Source: Candidatus Gastranaerophilales bacterium
GTDB taxonomy: Bacteria; Cyanobacteriota; Vampirovibrionia; Gastranaerophilales; Gastranaerophilaceae
Length of the DNA: 64,000 nucleotides
Direction of reading: 5' to 3'
NCBI GenBank assembly: GCA_944322675.1
Contig: CALUPO010000006.1
Coordinates: forward strand, 1-64,000
The notes under the pieces are model-generated. The model was not told the DNA's origin. It ran no database searches and was given only the letters and a program-made list of their open reading frames with translations. Numbering within the stretch: the first letter of the stretch is position 1; the number at the start of each line of letters is the position of its first letter. Of the stretch, positions 19,953 through 25,846 are shown one piece after another. The position numbers and the translations under genes are program-made.

Positions 19953-19992
19953 CACTTTAGCTAAAAATATTGGAATATTTTTAATTTAAGTG
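19953..19992. promoter_or_regulatory. 40-bp interrupted dyad upstream of the anti-sigma-like gene
   Basis: Perfect symmetry about 19972/19973: inner arms AAAAATATT (19963-19971) and AATATTTTT (19974-19982), outer arms CACTT (19953-19957) and AAGTG (19988-19992). A TTTACA (19949-19954) overlaps its left end and TATAAT (19998-20003) follows its right end. It could be a regulator site controlling the gene at 20008. Confidence 0.5.
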
Positions 19993-20007
19993 TAATCTAT
20001 AATAAGT

Positions 20008-21591
20008 ATGGAAAATATTATATTGAATAAAAATGATACTATAATGTACAATAATATTCAAATAACTGCAAACGATACAAAATTTGCACAGGGCTATACT
20101 TGTGACATCGAAGATGAATTTTTAAGGAAAAAACTTTTTTATTCATTGTCAATAGCCTCAGCTTTAAAAAATCACTTAAATGTCAATGGTTTTAATTTCG
20201 AAATGGAAGATTCTCTTTTCCAAGTGCCTGCTATTATTGAAAATTATGAATTTGTTGATATTTACATAAAAAACTTACCAATACAAGTTGCTTATACATT
20301 TGAAAATGACACAACAGTAGCAATTCCAAAAATTCACTTTGAAGCTTCTATTGAACCTCCTATGTATATTGTTGCAAAACTTCATTCCAACTTATCATCT
20401 TTTGATTTAATCGGTACTATAAATACAAATTTCCTAAATAAAGTCAAAGAAAATAATAAGTATATTTATGTTGATATAACAACTTTAAATAAAATTGATA
20501 AAATAACTTATGACATTAATAAGTATACACAAGATTATGAATTTAATCAAAATTGCGAAGTTTTTGAACATATTAAAACAAATTTTATAAGTTTTATTGA
20601 TAATAATTTAACAATTGCAGAAAATGTTGAGTTAATTAAACATTTATTAAAATGTCCTGATTGCCGAAATAAACTTATAAACTATTATAAATTTGAATCT
20701 ATGGTTCAAAATATAGACTCTGACAGCGAATTAATTAATAAAATTGATGAATATATATATGGCACTGTTGATAAATATTATGTCAAAGAAAGCAGTTATA
20801 ACCTAAATGATATTCAAAATAATATAGTTGAAAAAGAAAATATTTCTCAAAATTGTGAAATTGAGGTTAAAGAAAATTTAACAAATAAAGTTATAAATTT
20901 TGAAAATAAAGATGAAAATACAAAAACAAGTAATCCTTCAAACATTAATGATAATATTAAAATAAGTTTACTTTACAATTCAAATCCGACTTTAAATAAA
21001 GGAATTAATACAATTAATGAAATTGACAATATTAATAAAACAAAAAATAATTTCAAAAAAGTAATTATTTTATTTATTATTTTTATTCTATCATCAGTTT
21101 CATTATGTTATTATGGTTATAAATACTACAAAATTAAATATTTAAAAAATAAACAAAACAATATAAAAGTTGTTGACAATATATCTTCAGAAAGTGCAAA
21201 TCCATTGGAAGAACAAAATGCAAAAACAAAAGAAGTTTTAGTTCCACGTCCCTTAAAACTTTCACAAATATCCTGGGAAGCTCCTGAAAATATTTTAAAA
21301 ACACCTGCTTATAATAAATATTTAATTGACGTTGGAAAAAATCTCAAAATAAACCTACAAAACCAATTTTTTGAATTAAATGAAATAGTTTATCAAACAA
21401 AGTATCAACTACAAGTTTTAATTGATACAAATGGAACAGTTGCCGATATCAAAATAATTCAAGCAAGCGGAAATGAAGCAATAGATGAATTAATCTTGAC
21501 TACAACAAAACAAACATTAAACTATATAAAACCACCTGTTATTGATACAATAAAAGAACCCTTGATTTTAATTTTAGAATTTGAATTCTAA
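20008..21591 (+). CDS. Predicted transmembrane anti-sigma-like protein with zinc motif and periplasmic TonB-like C-terminal domain
   Basis: 527 residues. N-terminal domain (1-150) is loosely like the cyanobacterial DUF1822 shape. H212-x3-C216-x2-C219 (HLLKCPDC) is exactly the zinc anti-sigma (ZAS/zf-HC2) pattern in a helical context. A long Asn-rich linker (260-345) precedes one membrane span (351-370), then an outside segment ending in a TonB_C-like domain (about 440-527) with QLQVLIDTNGTVADIKIIQASGNEAIDE. The next gene is sigma-like, supporting a membrane anti-sigma role. The TonB-type sensor end is unusual. ATG follows a TATAAT by 4 bases; no ribosome site. Confidence 0.68.
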   Translation: MENIILNKNDTIMYNNIQITANDTKFAQGYTCDIEDEFLRKKLFYSLSIASALKNHLNVNGFNFEMEDSLFQVPAIIENYEFVDIYIKNLPIQVAYTFENDTTVAIPKIHFEASIEPPMYIVAKLHSNLSSFDLIGTINTNFLNKVKENNKYIYVDITTLNKIDKITYDINKYTQDYEFNQNCEVFEHIKTNFISFIDNNLTIAENVELIKHLLKCPDCRNKLINYYKFESMVQNIDSDSELINKIDEYIYGTVDKYYVKESSYNLNDIQNNIVEKENISQNCEIEVKENLTNKVINFENKDENTKTSNPSNINDNIKISLLYNSNPTLNKGINTINEIDNINKTKNNFKKVIILFIIFILSSVSLCYYGYKYYKIKYLKNKQNNIKVVDNISSESANPLEEQNAKTKEVLVPRPLKLSQISWEAPENILKTPAYNKYLIDVGKNLKINLQNQFFELNEIVYQTKYQLQVLIDTNGTVADIKIIQASGNEAIDELILTTTKQTLNYIKPPVIDTIKEPLILILEFEF

Positions 21592-21637
21592 TCTTTATGT
21601 TATAATAAACTATACAATTGAAATGGAGAAATTATAA

Positions 21638-22228
21638 ATGGTCACATCTTCAGTTATTGAAAGTCAAATCAAAATTATTGAACAATTAATACGGAATAAT
21701 CCAAATTTTGTAGGTAATGAAGATTTATTTGAAGAATTTATGAATGAAGCATATTCAAAACTTCATGTATTTATAAACTCAATTAAAGATTTAACAAAAA
21801 TAGAAGGTTATGCTGCAAAAGTTGTAAATACTTCTATACTTACCATACTTAAAAATAAAGGACGTATAAAATTAAATAATGTAAGATATTCAAAAACAAA
21901 GCCTTTGCAAATTGATGTTTCTAATATAAATGATATAATTAAAAGCCCTTCTTTAAAATATGAAGATAAAATAAAATATGAGCTTATTGATCCACGTTTT
22001 TCTTACAACAAAAAAAATCTAAGTAAAGAAATAATAAAACATATATTAAATTCAGTTATTCAAATAAATCAAGAATATCCAGATAAACAGTATTTGAAAT
22101 TATACAAACTTCGTTATATTAATAAAAAGACACAAAATCAAATATCCTTTGAGTTAAATATTCCACAAATGGAAGTTTCGAAACGCATATTTGAGTTAAG
22201 TAATATGATTAAATTAAATTTAAAATAA
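21638..22228 (+). CDS. Sigma-70-family-like factor (regions 2 and 4)
   Basis: 196 residues. The first half (about 25-85) resembles sigma region 2: LFEEFMNEAYSKLHVFI and IEGYAAKVVNTSILTILKNKGRIK. The C-terminus (about 145-196) resembles the region 4 helix-turn-helix: LRYINKKTQNQISFELN, then QMEVSKRIFELSNMI. It begins 46 bases after the membrane anti-sigma-like gene with GGAG 10 bases before the ATG. It is divergent from housekeeping sigma and smaller, like an ECF-type factor. Likely held by the upstream protein (inference). Confidence 0.7.
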   Translation: MVTSSVIESQIKIIEQLIRNNPNFVGNEDLFEEFMNEAYSKLHVFINSIKDLTKIEGYAAKVVNTSILTILKNKGRIKLNNVRYSKTKPLQIDVSNINDIIKSPSLKYEDKIKYELIDPRFSYNKKNLSKEIIKHILNSVIQINQEYPDKQYLKLYKLRYINKKTQNQISFELNIPQMEVSKRIFELSNMIKLNLK

Positions 22229-22318: not shown

Positions 22319-22720
22319 ATGAATAAAAAGTTAACAGGTTTATTACTTATCCAAACCTTAATAATATTAGCAGGAACAAATGTTGCTCTTGCTGATGGTA
22401 TGGCAATTGAACCGGTAAATGTTGATTCAACTTACAATGTACCAAATATAAAAAATGTATCTGGAAGTTCAAATAAAACAACATCTGGAAGTGTACAACA
22501 AACTGATAATTTTCAAAGTGCTTTATTTAAATTAGATTCTGCACAAGTTGAAATGAGAAACAATTTAGTAGATCTAAAAACAAAATATCAAGATGTTGAC
22601 TCACGTTACCAGCTTATAAAGCAAGAACGTAAATTATTAAATAAAGAAGTAAAATCACTTGAAAAAAGAATAAAAAATCTGGATAAAACTAAAGAAAATA
22701 TTCGTAAAAATATGGAATAA
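22319..22720 (+). CDS. Secreted coiled-coil protein of unknown function
   Basis: 133 residues. A clear Sec signal peptide (hydrophobic 5-20) ends VALA-D, cleavage after A25. A Ser/Thr-rich linker is followed by a charged coiled coil (about 70-133). Very strong ribosome site (GAGGGAGAGAGG). It lies just downstream of the sigma-like gene with its own palindrome-containing promoter, so it may be a target of that system or a periplasmic structural protein. No known family recognised. Confidence 0.75.
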   Translation: MNKKLTGLLLIQTLIILAGTNVALADGMAIEPVNVDSTYNVPNIKNVSGSSNKTTSGSVQQTDNFQSALFKLDSAQVEMRNNLVDLKTKYQDVDSRYQLIKQERKLLNKEVKSLEKRIKNLDKTKENIRKNME

Positions 22721-22726
22721 TATAAA

Positions 22727-25700
22727 TTAATCTGATTTATTAACTAAGTTTAAAATTTCATTAATTTGCTTATCAAATGACTTAATATTATTAAGTTTTG
22801 TTTTTGTAATGACTTGATTTAAGATATAGATTCCTTTTTCTTCAGTTTGTGGATTTTGAATAAATATTTTTGATAAAAGTATTTTAAAGTTAATTGTTAA
22901 TATAATTAAAGTATCATCAACTTTTTCTATATCAGGTAATATTTCGAGAATTAAACTTTTAGCAGCTTCAAATTTATTATTTTGAACTTTATTTAAAGCA
23001 CTTAAATAAAATGCAAGTAAGTTAATATTCAATAACCCATATTGATTAGACTTATCTATTACATCAAGAAGAATGTTATCGGTCATATTGTAATTTCCTG
23101 CATAGCTATGAAGCATGGCAGCCATTAAATCAAGAATATAATTTAAACTTATACTATCAATTTGACGAGCAAGAACTTTTGTTTCATTTATTATTTTTGA
23201 ATTATTAATGGAACTTGACAAAGTAAAATCTAAAATAATACGATAAAGATTAACAAGAATTTTTCCTATTGGTGTTTTAACATCACTTGCAATTTTTGCA
23301 AAATCATTACTTAAAGCACCGGTAATAAAAAGATTTTCTATCATGAAAAACAAATTAAAATCATTCTTATTACCATTATAAAAAGGTTCTACTTTATTAA
23401 TTTTTTCCTTCAAATCATCTTTTAACGTCAATATAGACTCCAAAAGATAATAAATAATACAAATATTTAATATTCTATGATAGTTTTTTACCCCACCAAA
23501 AGCATCATAAGCTTTTTGCTGATTATTTATATCAAGATTCAATAAGATATCTTGAAATATTTTTGAAGAAGCTTCAATCTGTCCTAATTCAAATAAAATT
23601 TCAACTTTTTTTAAAACTAATAAAAACATATTAGGATTAAAAGAATTTGAAGCCATATTATAATCTTTATTTACCATACGAGCAAGCACTTCATTTAGAT
23701 AAACGTAAGATTCATAATAATTTTTTAAACTATAAAAAATATTGTAAGCAAAATAATAAAGAGTTCGAACAAGGTCAGCATTATCACTATTTCTAAAACG
23801 ATTTATAGCCATCTCAACAACATCAACGACTAATTCAGGACTCTTTGCAAAACAAGTAGAAATCAACGAAAGCATAATATTATCAATTGCCGAATCATTT
23901 TCACTCATATTTTGTTCTTCTAATGTGAACATAAATTCTTTTTGTAGCCTTGCATACATGGCATAATCACCAAAAGACAAACCAACCGTTGAAAGGTGCT
24001 CCAATCCATTATAAAAAAATGCATCATTTTTTTCAAACATAAGGGGATGAAATGGAGGCAAGAACATTTTAAATTTTTCAATTTGTTTTTGACGATTCAA
24101 AATTTCAGGATAATCATCAACAATGTGCTTAATAAGTTTCTCATAGTATTTACGATTAACAACATAAACAATGTCATCCTTTACGGTTATAAAATCTCTA
24201 TCTTCAAGTAACATTAAAAAACGTTCTTCTTTAAAACCAAATCCACGTAAGTATGCTTTACGAACACCAAACTTTGCATATAAAAGAAATACCCACAACT
24301 CAAAAAATTGGTTCAACTTGGTAAGTCTTAATAACTTGGTAAATAATAAGTTATTTATAGACGAAGGTATTTTAACAAAATTACTTTCATCAAAAAACCA
24401 CTTACCTTCCATAAAAGTCAGCACACCTGTTTCCCGAAAATATTCTAATAAATTTTTTATATAAAATTTAGATTTTTGTCCCTCATTTTTTAACTTATTT
24501 AAATAATAACCCATTCCTTCAATATCATTTAAAGCAAACTCCTCAACAAGATCTTCAAATTTATCAGATACTAAATCAAAATGATAAACATAATCTTTAT
24601 TTAACAAACCCGGTATCATATCAAAAAACTTAAAACTATTATTTATAGCAAAAATTATATTAAAATTAAATTTAATTTTAGTCTCAAAAAATCTTTTCAA
24701 TATTTTTAAAGAACCACTATCAATATAATGAAAATCATCAATCATAATAATAACTTCATTATTAAATTTAGAAAATAAATCTAAAACTTTTGAAAGGATT
24801 AGCTCATAATTTTTTTCAAAATTATCACTTTCATAAGGCATCAAATTCAATATTGATTTTATATCTTCATCAAGAGTATCTAATTTATTGGGCATTGAAA
24901 ATATTTCAATTTCAGTCAATTTATAAAAAAGTTTAATAATTTCTCTTATTATATAAAAAGGAAATCTTGGATTTGTCTTACAACACTGCACTTTTATAAC
25001 ATTTTTTTTATTTAAATGTTCAAAAAATATATTATCAACACCACCTAAATGATTAGGATACTTAAATATAAAAACACTACCTGTATTAAGTTCTTCAATT
25101 TTATTTTGAATAAACTCACAAATTTTTACAGAACCTAAACGATAAAACCCTGCTTTTGTTTCAAAAATTTTTACAGAACCATTAATTATATTTTCATTTA
25201 AATCATTATTTTTTTCAATTTTTTTGGGAAGTTTGATATACTCATCTTCGACATTTTCAACATCTTTAACTTTTGACAATTTTAAAGTAAGTAAATTTTT
25301 AATAATTAATAAATAAAAACTACACTTTTTATTATTTATTAAAATATTTTCATAAGATGTTGCCTTATATTTATCCATAACTTCAATAAAAATTTTTTTA
25401 TCAAGTTGTATTTTTATTTGTGAATAAGCAGAAGTTTTATTTTCAACAATATTTAGCTTTGCTAAATCTTTTATCTTTTCTAAAGCTTCCGTTTTGCTAT
25501 CACTTGTAAGATTCATATAAACTTTAATATACTTATTTTTTAACTTAAAAAAATCAACATTAATATCCAAAAGTTTTTGAGAAAATTTAACAATAAAATC
25601 CAATGCATTTAAATAAAGATGTTTATCTGCAAAAATAGTTGTAAAAGTAAAAAGTATCAATCCCTTTCCACTTTTAACAGAAACCTTAACACCATCAAGT

Positions 25701-25846
25701 GTTATATTTTTACCGAAATCAACAAACTTATTTATCATTTTTAAAGCTTGTTGTTCATTTTTCAACAAACCTGAAATTTCTTTATAGTTACCAATTCTAA
25801 CATATAAATAAAGGTTTTTCTTTATTGATTGCTTAATTTTTTCCAT
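22727..25846 (-). CDS. Large degenerate cyclase-like/STAND ATPase-like protein with helical repeats
   Basis: 1039 residues. Residues 10-100 echo a class III cyclase fold (VRIGNYKEISGLL; GVKVSVKSGKGLILFTF), but the metal-binding Asp is missing. Residues 225-450 align in order with the AAA_16 domain of cyclase/LuxR-type regulators: Walker B IIMIDDFHYIDSGSLKIL (366-383) is intact, while the P-loop position (about 258-272, VFIFKYPNHLGGVDN) lacks the GxGKS/T lysine. The remaining 500 residues are helical, TPR-like. This suggests a regulatory pseudoenzyme or scaffold. Convergent with the secreted coiled-coil gene, 6 bases apart. Confidence 0.6.
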   Translation of the reverse strand: MEKIKQSIKKNLYLYVRIGNYKEISGLLKNEQQALKMINKFVDFGKNITLDGVKVSVKSGKGLILFTFTTIFADKHLYLNALDFIVKFSQKLLDINVDFFKLKNKYIKVYMNLTSDSKTEALEKIKDLAKLNIVENKTSAYSQIKIQLDKKIFIEVMDKYKATSYENILINNKKCSFYLLIIKNLLTLKLSKVKDVENVEDEYIKLPKKIEKNNDLNENIINGSVKIFETKAGFYRLGSVKICEFIQNKIEELNTGSVFIFKYPNHLGGVDNIFFEHLNKKNVIKVQCCKTNPRFPFYIIREIIKLFYKLTEIEIFSMPNKLDTLDEDIKSILNLMPYESDNFEKNYELILSKVLDLFSKFNNEVIIMIDDFHYIDSGSLKILKRFFETKIKFNFNIIFAINNSFKFFDMIPGLLNKDYVYHFDLVSDKFEDLVEEFALNDIEGMGYYLNKLKNEGQKSKFYIKNLLEYFRETGVLTFMEGKWFFDESNFVKIPSSINNLLFTKLLRLTKLNQFFELWVFLLYAKFGVRKAYLRGFGFKEERFLMLLEDRDFITVKDDIVYVVNRKYYEKLIKHIVDDYPEILNRQKQIEKFKMFLPPFHPLMFEKNDAFFYNGLEHLSTVGLSFGDYAMYARLQKEFMFTLEEQNMSENDSAIDNIMLSLISTCFAKSPELVVDVVEMAINRFRNSDNADLVRTLYYFAYNIFYSLKNYYESYVYLNEVLARMVNKDYNMASNSFNPNMFLLVLKKVEILFELGQIEASSKIFQDILLNLDINNQQKAYDAFGGVKNYHRILNICIIYYLLESILTLKDDLKEKINKVEPFYNGNKNDFNLFFMIENLFITGALSNDFAKIASDVKTPIGKILVNLYRIILDFTLSSSINNSKIINETKVLARQIDSISLNYILDLMAAMLHSYAGNYNMTDNILLDVIDKSNQYGLLNINLLAFYLSALNKVQNNKFEAAKSLILEILPDIEKVDDTLIILTINFKILLSKIFIQNPQTEEKGIYILNQVITKTKLNNIKSFDKQINEILNLVNKSD

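Follow-up and report, generated by a model that had tools for sequence, protein, structure and literature searches.

Two adjacent genes, here called Z and S, probably encode a sigma/anti-sigma pair that would form an autoregulated operon and would carry a periplasmic TonB/TolA-type sensor working without ExbB/ExbD power. They lie in the window, a 64,000-nucleotide stretch of DNA from a Candidatus Gastranaerophilales genome (Table 1). Judged by profiles and structure models, this is probably a known kind of pair in which the sensor architecture is new. The anti-sigma mode of switching is better supported than the nature of what Z senses. Both reading frames were recovered by ORF checking at the coordinates of the original prediction for this DNA, which had overlooked the promoter and the third gene of the locus as well as the DUF1822 domain of Z.

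Table 1. Positions of the features of the Z-S locus in the window.
Feature	Position	Strand	Basis or remark
ECF-type promoter TTGGAATA-N13-TGTAATCT ahead of Z	19970..19998	+	motif shared across orthologous loci
Z	20008..21591	+	527 aa, probable membrane anti-sigma factor
DUF1822 domain, possible nuclease-like fold (Z residues 15-178)	20050..20541	+	Pfam in orthologues, hhalign, AlphaFold2
Predicted class I anti-sigma helix bundle (Z residues 182-251)	20551..20760	+	zf-HC2, RsiW profile match, four helices in model
HxxxCxxC (H212-C219)	20641..20664	+	sequence motif
Membrane span (Z residues 352-370)	21061..21117	+	hydropathy, AlphaFold2
TonB/TolA-type C-terminal domain (Z residues 415-527)	21250..21588	+	TonB_2, orthologues, fold matches
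S	21638..22228	+	196 aa, ECF-type sigma factor
1039-aa ATPase, possible divergent inverted relative of the usual STAND ATPase	22727..25846	-	hhalign prob 95, E 3e-8, weak

Conservation and order of the gene pair

Relatives of S were sought in 84,980 species genomes, and 236 were found; the locus counts given here refer to the best 80 of these 236. Most of the 80 loci were titled Gastranaerophilales or Melainabacteria, and a few bore generic or apparently mislabelled titles, for example, Fusobacterium and Brachyspira. Z was located directly 5' of S on the same strand in 80/80 loci, with a gap of 10-143 bp, an adjacency that far exceeds chance. The pairing of the two genes, from which a partnership had been proposed, is thus conserved. 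Comparison of adjacency across Gastranaerophilales also bore out the unusual order that had been described, with the anti-sigma gene before the sigma gene; as Z is 5' of S in all 80 loci, the reversed order is the rule in this group. In 59 related genomes, Z was present in 52 and S in 51. The two genes were found on separate contigs in a few other genomes (G003, G021, G040 and G045). In about 62-65 of the 80 loci (L205, L237 and others), the gene before Z lies on the opposite strand, in divergent orientation, and encodes a small protein (ca. 140 aa) that contains one hydrophobic stretch.

Sigma factor and promoter

By profile comparison, S is an ECF-type sigma factor of ca. 200 aa with regions 2 and 4. 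Residues 12-192 matched the sigma70-ECF model TIGR02937 (E 3e-10; 40.0 bits, curated cut-off 42.9), as did 41/41 S sequences of alignment A1 (best 4.9e-21), and the sigma-like character originally assigned to S, which a lack of any match to sigma regions would have contradicted, was therefore retained. In the S of the window, Pfam recognised no region other than region 4, and this below the cut-off. The best solved relative in the profile search of S was SigW (5wuq chain A, E 1.6e-4). S is predicted to bind core RNA polymerase and to direct transcription. When S was compared with small cyanobacterial sigma-like proteins, the profiles aligned over region 4 only (prob 39), and direct kinship was not supported.

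Promoters of ECF sigma factors take a form with a GGAA-type -35 element. A GGAA-like element of this kind precedes the operon of S: GGAATA was found 5' of Z in 71/73 loci; TTGGAATA was found in 63, where shuffles predict 1.2. The second element, TGYNNTC(T/A), followed exactly 13 bases after the TTGGAATA-type element in 71/72 sites; one G and the TC did not vary. The core TTGGAATA-N13-TGYNNTC has a single exact site in the 2.1 Mb genome of the window, the one before Z; this argues that the Z-S operon is very probably autoregulated by S. With a stricter pattern, 19 places were found in 35 genomes, 13 of them before Z, and the reversed control gave 0. A regulon search that allowed up to three mismatches returned 276 sites against 173 in the reversed control, which is too noisy for naming targets, and the promoter-pattern search of the genome yielded no targets of S beyond its own operon. 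The end of the promoter and the ATG at 20008 are separated by 9 bases, and no clear ribosome site is seen at 19998-20047. Translation of Z may be leaderless or may start at Met13 (20044).

Anti-sigma region of Z

The zinc pattern H212-x3-C216-x2-C219 (HLLKCPDC) was found in Z as originally described. It occupies the position typical of class I anti-sigma domains (ASDI/ZAS) within a predicted four-helix bundle (AlphaFold2 helices 184-197, 203-215, 217-236 and 240-251), across helices 2 and 3. Pfam zf-HC2 matched residues 196-220 (E 3.8e-4; 20.9 bits, cut-off 22.2) and was detected in 26/49 Z members. With a profile of the N-terminal part of Z, a single relevant hit was obtained, a weak match to RsiW (5wuq chain C, profile positions 180-227, E 0.039); the other two hits were designed repeat proteins. 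Among the sequence arguments for a pair, the strongest is that S and Z recover SigW and RsiW, respectively, which are two chains of one solved complex; each match by itself is modest. The zf-HC2 and RsiW matches, the helices of the model and the ECF sigma gene adjoining Z in every locus (80/80) point to a class I anti-sigma domain, as had been proposed. Searches by VIA/Foldseek with the whole Z model returned no anti-sigma structure for the bundle; the lists were filled by larger domains and are uninformative either way.

The original prediction had staked its case in part on conservation of the motif in orthologues. This held for 47/74 complete Z orthologues, in which HxxxCxxC was kept, and failed for the 27/74 in which zinc ligands were missing. 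Mapped onto the S tree, the presence or absence of the motif requires three changes, as it is missing from one clade (25 rows) and from two isolated rows. D198, R220 and the helix pattern were retained throughout, including the orthologues without zinc ligands. Published class I anti-sigma groups comprise ca. 56 % zinc and ca. 44 % zinc-less forms (PMC7406223), and because known groups mix both forms, the zinc-less orthologues do not refute the class I assignment. We infer that Z binds and inhibits S. Mirror-tree correlations between the S and Z domains (0.79-0.89) were set aside, as they are confounded by shared ancestry.

DUF1822 domain of Z

The first ca. 178 residues of Z are homologous to the cyanobacterial family DUF1822 (PF08852). 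Pfam detected the family in 24/49 Z orthologues (best 2.3e-16), many of which passed the curated cut-off; the Z of the window itself lies below this cut-off and is linked through alignment with its orthologues. The profile-profile match was E 1e-13 (hhalign), and AlphaFold2 pLDDT was above 90 for residues 15-178. Models of the window Z and of an orthologue matched mainly PD-(D/E)XK nuclease folds, near the noise level of the tool, the top matches at this level being Eco15I (Z-score 8.7) for the window model and Hjc (8.2) and SPARDA (8.0) for the orthologue model; the match list was dominated by this one fold class. An intact D...(D/E)xK active site was not found: the orthologues have D-x8-D-x-R, and in the window Z the second part reads Q-x-A. 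Nuclease activity is not proposed, because the catalytic signature is changed in the orthologues and further lost in the window. The models suggest for DUF1822 a possible PD-(D/E)XK nuclease-like fold in which the signature is changed to D...(D/E)xR.

A sigma-like gene lies directly 5' of most of the cyanobacterial DUF1822 genes inspected (L166-L199), and a CHAT/CHASE2 protein was identified downstream of DUF1822 in one cyanobacterial case scanned. Kaur and colleagues reported caspase neighbourhoods that contain genes for ECF sigma factors and DUF1822, and called DUF1822 a TPR protein (PMC8195603). The cyanobacterial pairing with sigma-like genes, in proteins in which no zinc helix bundle or span was detected, would fit a Z that acts positively on S or anchors it at the membrane, rather than an inhibitor: DUF1822 would be an old sigma co-factor, and the bundle would only tether S near the membrane. 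The Z-then-S order, unusual for an anti-sigma gene, points the same way. We nevertheless regard this as rather unlikely, since the bundle matches RsiW, which is an inhibitor, and since the promoter suggests autoregulation, the usual arrangement in sigma/anti-sigma operons. An inhibitory Z is preferred.

Membrane span and TonB/TolA-type domain

Z has one membrane span, originally placed at residues 351-370; hydropathy gave 352-370 and AlphaFold2 a helix at 349-382. The net charge flanking the span was +112 versus +4 in one set (positive-inside clear, N-in/C-out) and +60 versus +35 in another (weakly N-in/C-out); in the window Z it is +2 versus +5, with the positive-inside pattern reversed. Domain content argues for an N-in/C-out orientation of Z. 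Between the anti-sigma domain and the span, residues 252-348 (window 20761-21051) are predicted to be disordered; this stretch has ca. 100 residues here and exceeds 1000 in some orthologues (for example, L206).

Both profile and fold agree with the TonB-like C-terminal domain reported for Z. TonB_2 matched residues 449-509 above the Pfam cut-off (E 1.9e-5), a TonB/TolA domain was present in 48/49 Z orthologues, and the fold was matched by TolA (1tol, Z-score 8.2) and TonB (6sly, Z-score 8.1). The further proposal, that this domain acts as a TonB and couples envelope contact through the Ton machinery, was not supported. In TonB and TolA, the motor is bound by means of a Ser/His motif within the membrane span (PMC12204202). 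Neither Ser-x3-His nor His was found in the Z spans of the orthologues (0/79), whereas the genome's own TonB has Ser-x3-His. No TonB-dependent receptor (PF00593 match), the partner in FecR-type cell-surface signalling, was found in the genome of the window, where a very divergent receptor could escape, and receptors were absent from 22/29 genomes searched.

The genome's own TonB is encoded in a TonB-ExbB-ExbD-ExbD operon (L160:7923-10749; G000:C1, about 214920-217750) with a complete ExbB-ExbD motor. The operon lies near an outer-membrane efflux gene, which is in line with a two-membrane cell. The motor is present although the genome shows no detected TonB-dependent receptor.

This motor and the TonB/TolA fold would allow Z to be a powered TonB-type transducer, from which S would be released by ExbB/ExbD pull, force or outer-membrane contact. 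Against such a transducer stand the spans without Ser-x3-His, the missing receptor and the fact that the motor already has its own TonB, and we consider it very improbable indeed. Because the span is without the Ser/His motif and a receptor was not found, the TonB/TolA domain of Z looks more likely to be a passive periplasmic sensor or anchor.

Genes behind S

S was followed, typically ca. 8 bp on, by a third gene in 76/80 of the best loci; its product has a double zinc ribbon, an AAA/STAND-type ATPase domain and TPR repeats. This close STAND ATPase gene, together with CHAT/CHASE2 behind DUF1822 in cyanobacteria and the neighbourhoods described in PMC8195603, could suggest that the locus serves conflict or cell suicide instead of envelope stress, with sigma factor, DUF1822 and STAND ATPase arranged as in the cyanobacterial sigma-DUF1822-caspase neighbourhoods. 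Such a function is decidedly improbable in our judgement: the module is present almost throughout the genomes of the order, whereas defence systems are patchy in their distribution, and no effector enzyme was recognised. It would be compatible with the sigma/anti-sigma mechanism preferred here.

In the window, a gene for a 133-aa protein with a signal-like N terminus and a coiled coil (22319-22720) stands after S instead of the STAND ATPase gene; among the 80 loci it is shared only by a sister species (L200). The kinship of the 1039-aa ATPase of the window with the usual third gene is weak, because hhalign alone links the two and hmmsearch gave no link.

Proposed mechanism and significance

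S would read the TTGGAATA-N13-TGYNNTC promoter ahead of Z. Z would be anchored in the inner membrane, its N-terminal half being cytoplasmic; there the helix bundle, with DUF1822 beside it, would bind and silence S. The TonB/TolA-type domain, on a flexible tether, would face the periplasm and respond to an envelope cue; most likely it would do so through a bound peptide or cell-wall element, and it would work without ExbB/ExbD power. Altered envelope contact, or cleavage of Z, would free S, and freed S would increase transcription of its own operon, in most species together with that of the STAND ATPase gene behind S.

A broader scheme is offered tentatively. DUF1822 might be a phylum-wide family of sigma partners built on a retired nuclease-like fold. 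In Gastranaerophilales, DUF1822 would then have been joined in one protein with a span, a TonB/TolA domain and a class I anti-sigma domain; the resulting envelope-to-transcription switch might read the periplasm with a force-transducer fold and control essentially one autoregulated operon, including the STAND ATPase. No TonB domain fused to an anti-sigma factor was found in the literature searched, the coverage of which was partial, so that a precedent is not thereby excluded.

The locus provides a testable regulatory circuit for the gut Gastranaerophilales, a large group of which most members are uncultured, and the conserved promoter makes S assayable. The architecture of Z suggests that a TonB/TolA-type domain, when carried by an anti-sigma factor, can sense the periplasm passively, and a sigma-partner role is proposed for the uncharacterised DUF1822 across cyanobacteria and their relatives.

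Comparison with known systems

SigW/RsiW of Bacillus subtilis (5WUQ) are the closest solved relatives of S and of the anti-sigma region of Z, and share with them sigma regions 2 and 4, the HxxxCxxC bundle and the single span; unlike Z, RsiW is without DUF1822. RsiW is also without a TonB/TolA domain, and its gene follows sigW, in contrast to the Z-then-S order.

The cyanobacterial sigma-DUF1822-CHAT/CHASE2 operons resemble Z-S in that a homologous DUF1822 gene adjoins a sigma-like gene. They differ in that the sigma gene comes first, in the CHAT/CHASE2 gene (one case scanned) that takes the place of the STAND ATPase gene, and in the length of the DUF1822 proteins, which at about 310-400 aa are too short for the extra domains of Z. 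TonB and TolA are like the C-terminal domain of Z in fold and sequence profile; Z differs from both by a span without the motor-binding motif and by its large, predicted cytoplasmic half.

In FecI/FecR and FoxI/FoxR, the periplasmic part of a membrane anti-sigma factor is active in envelope sensing (PMC11637429), the role proposed here for the periplasmic part of Z. Those systems use a TonB-dependent receptor, of which none was found in the genome of Z, and, in contrast to them, the TonB-like fold sits on the anti-sigma candidate itself.
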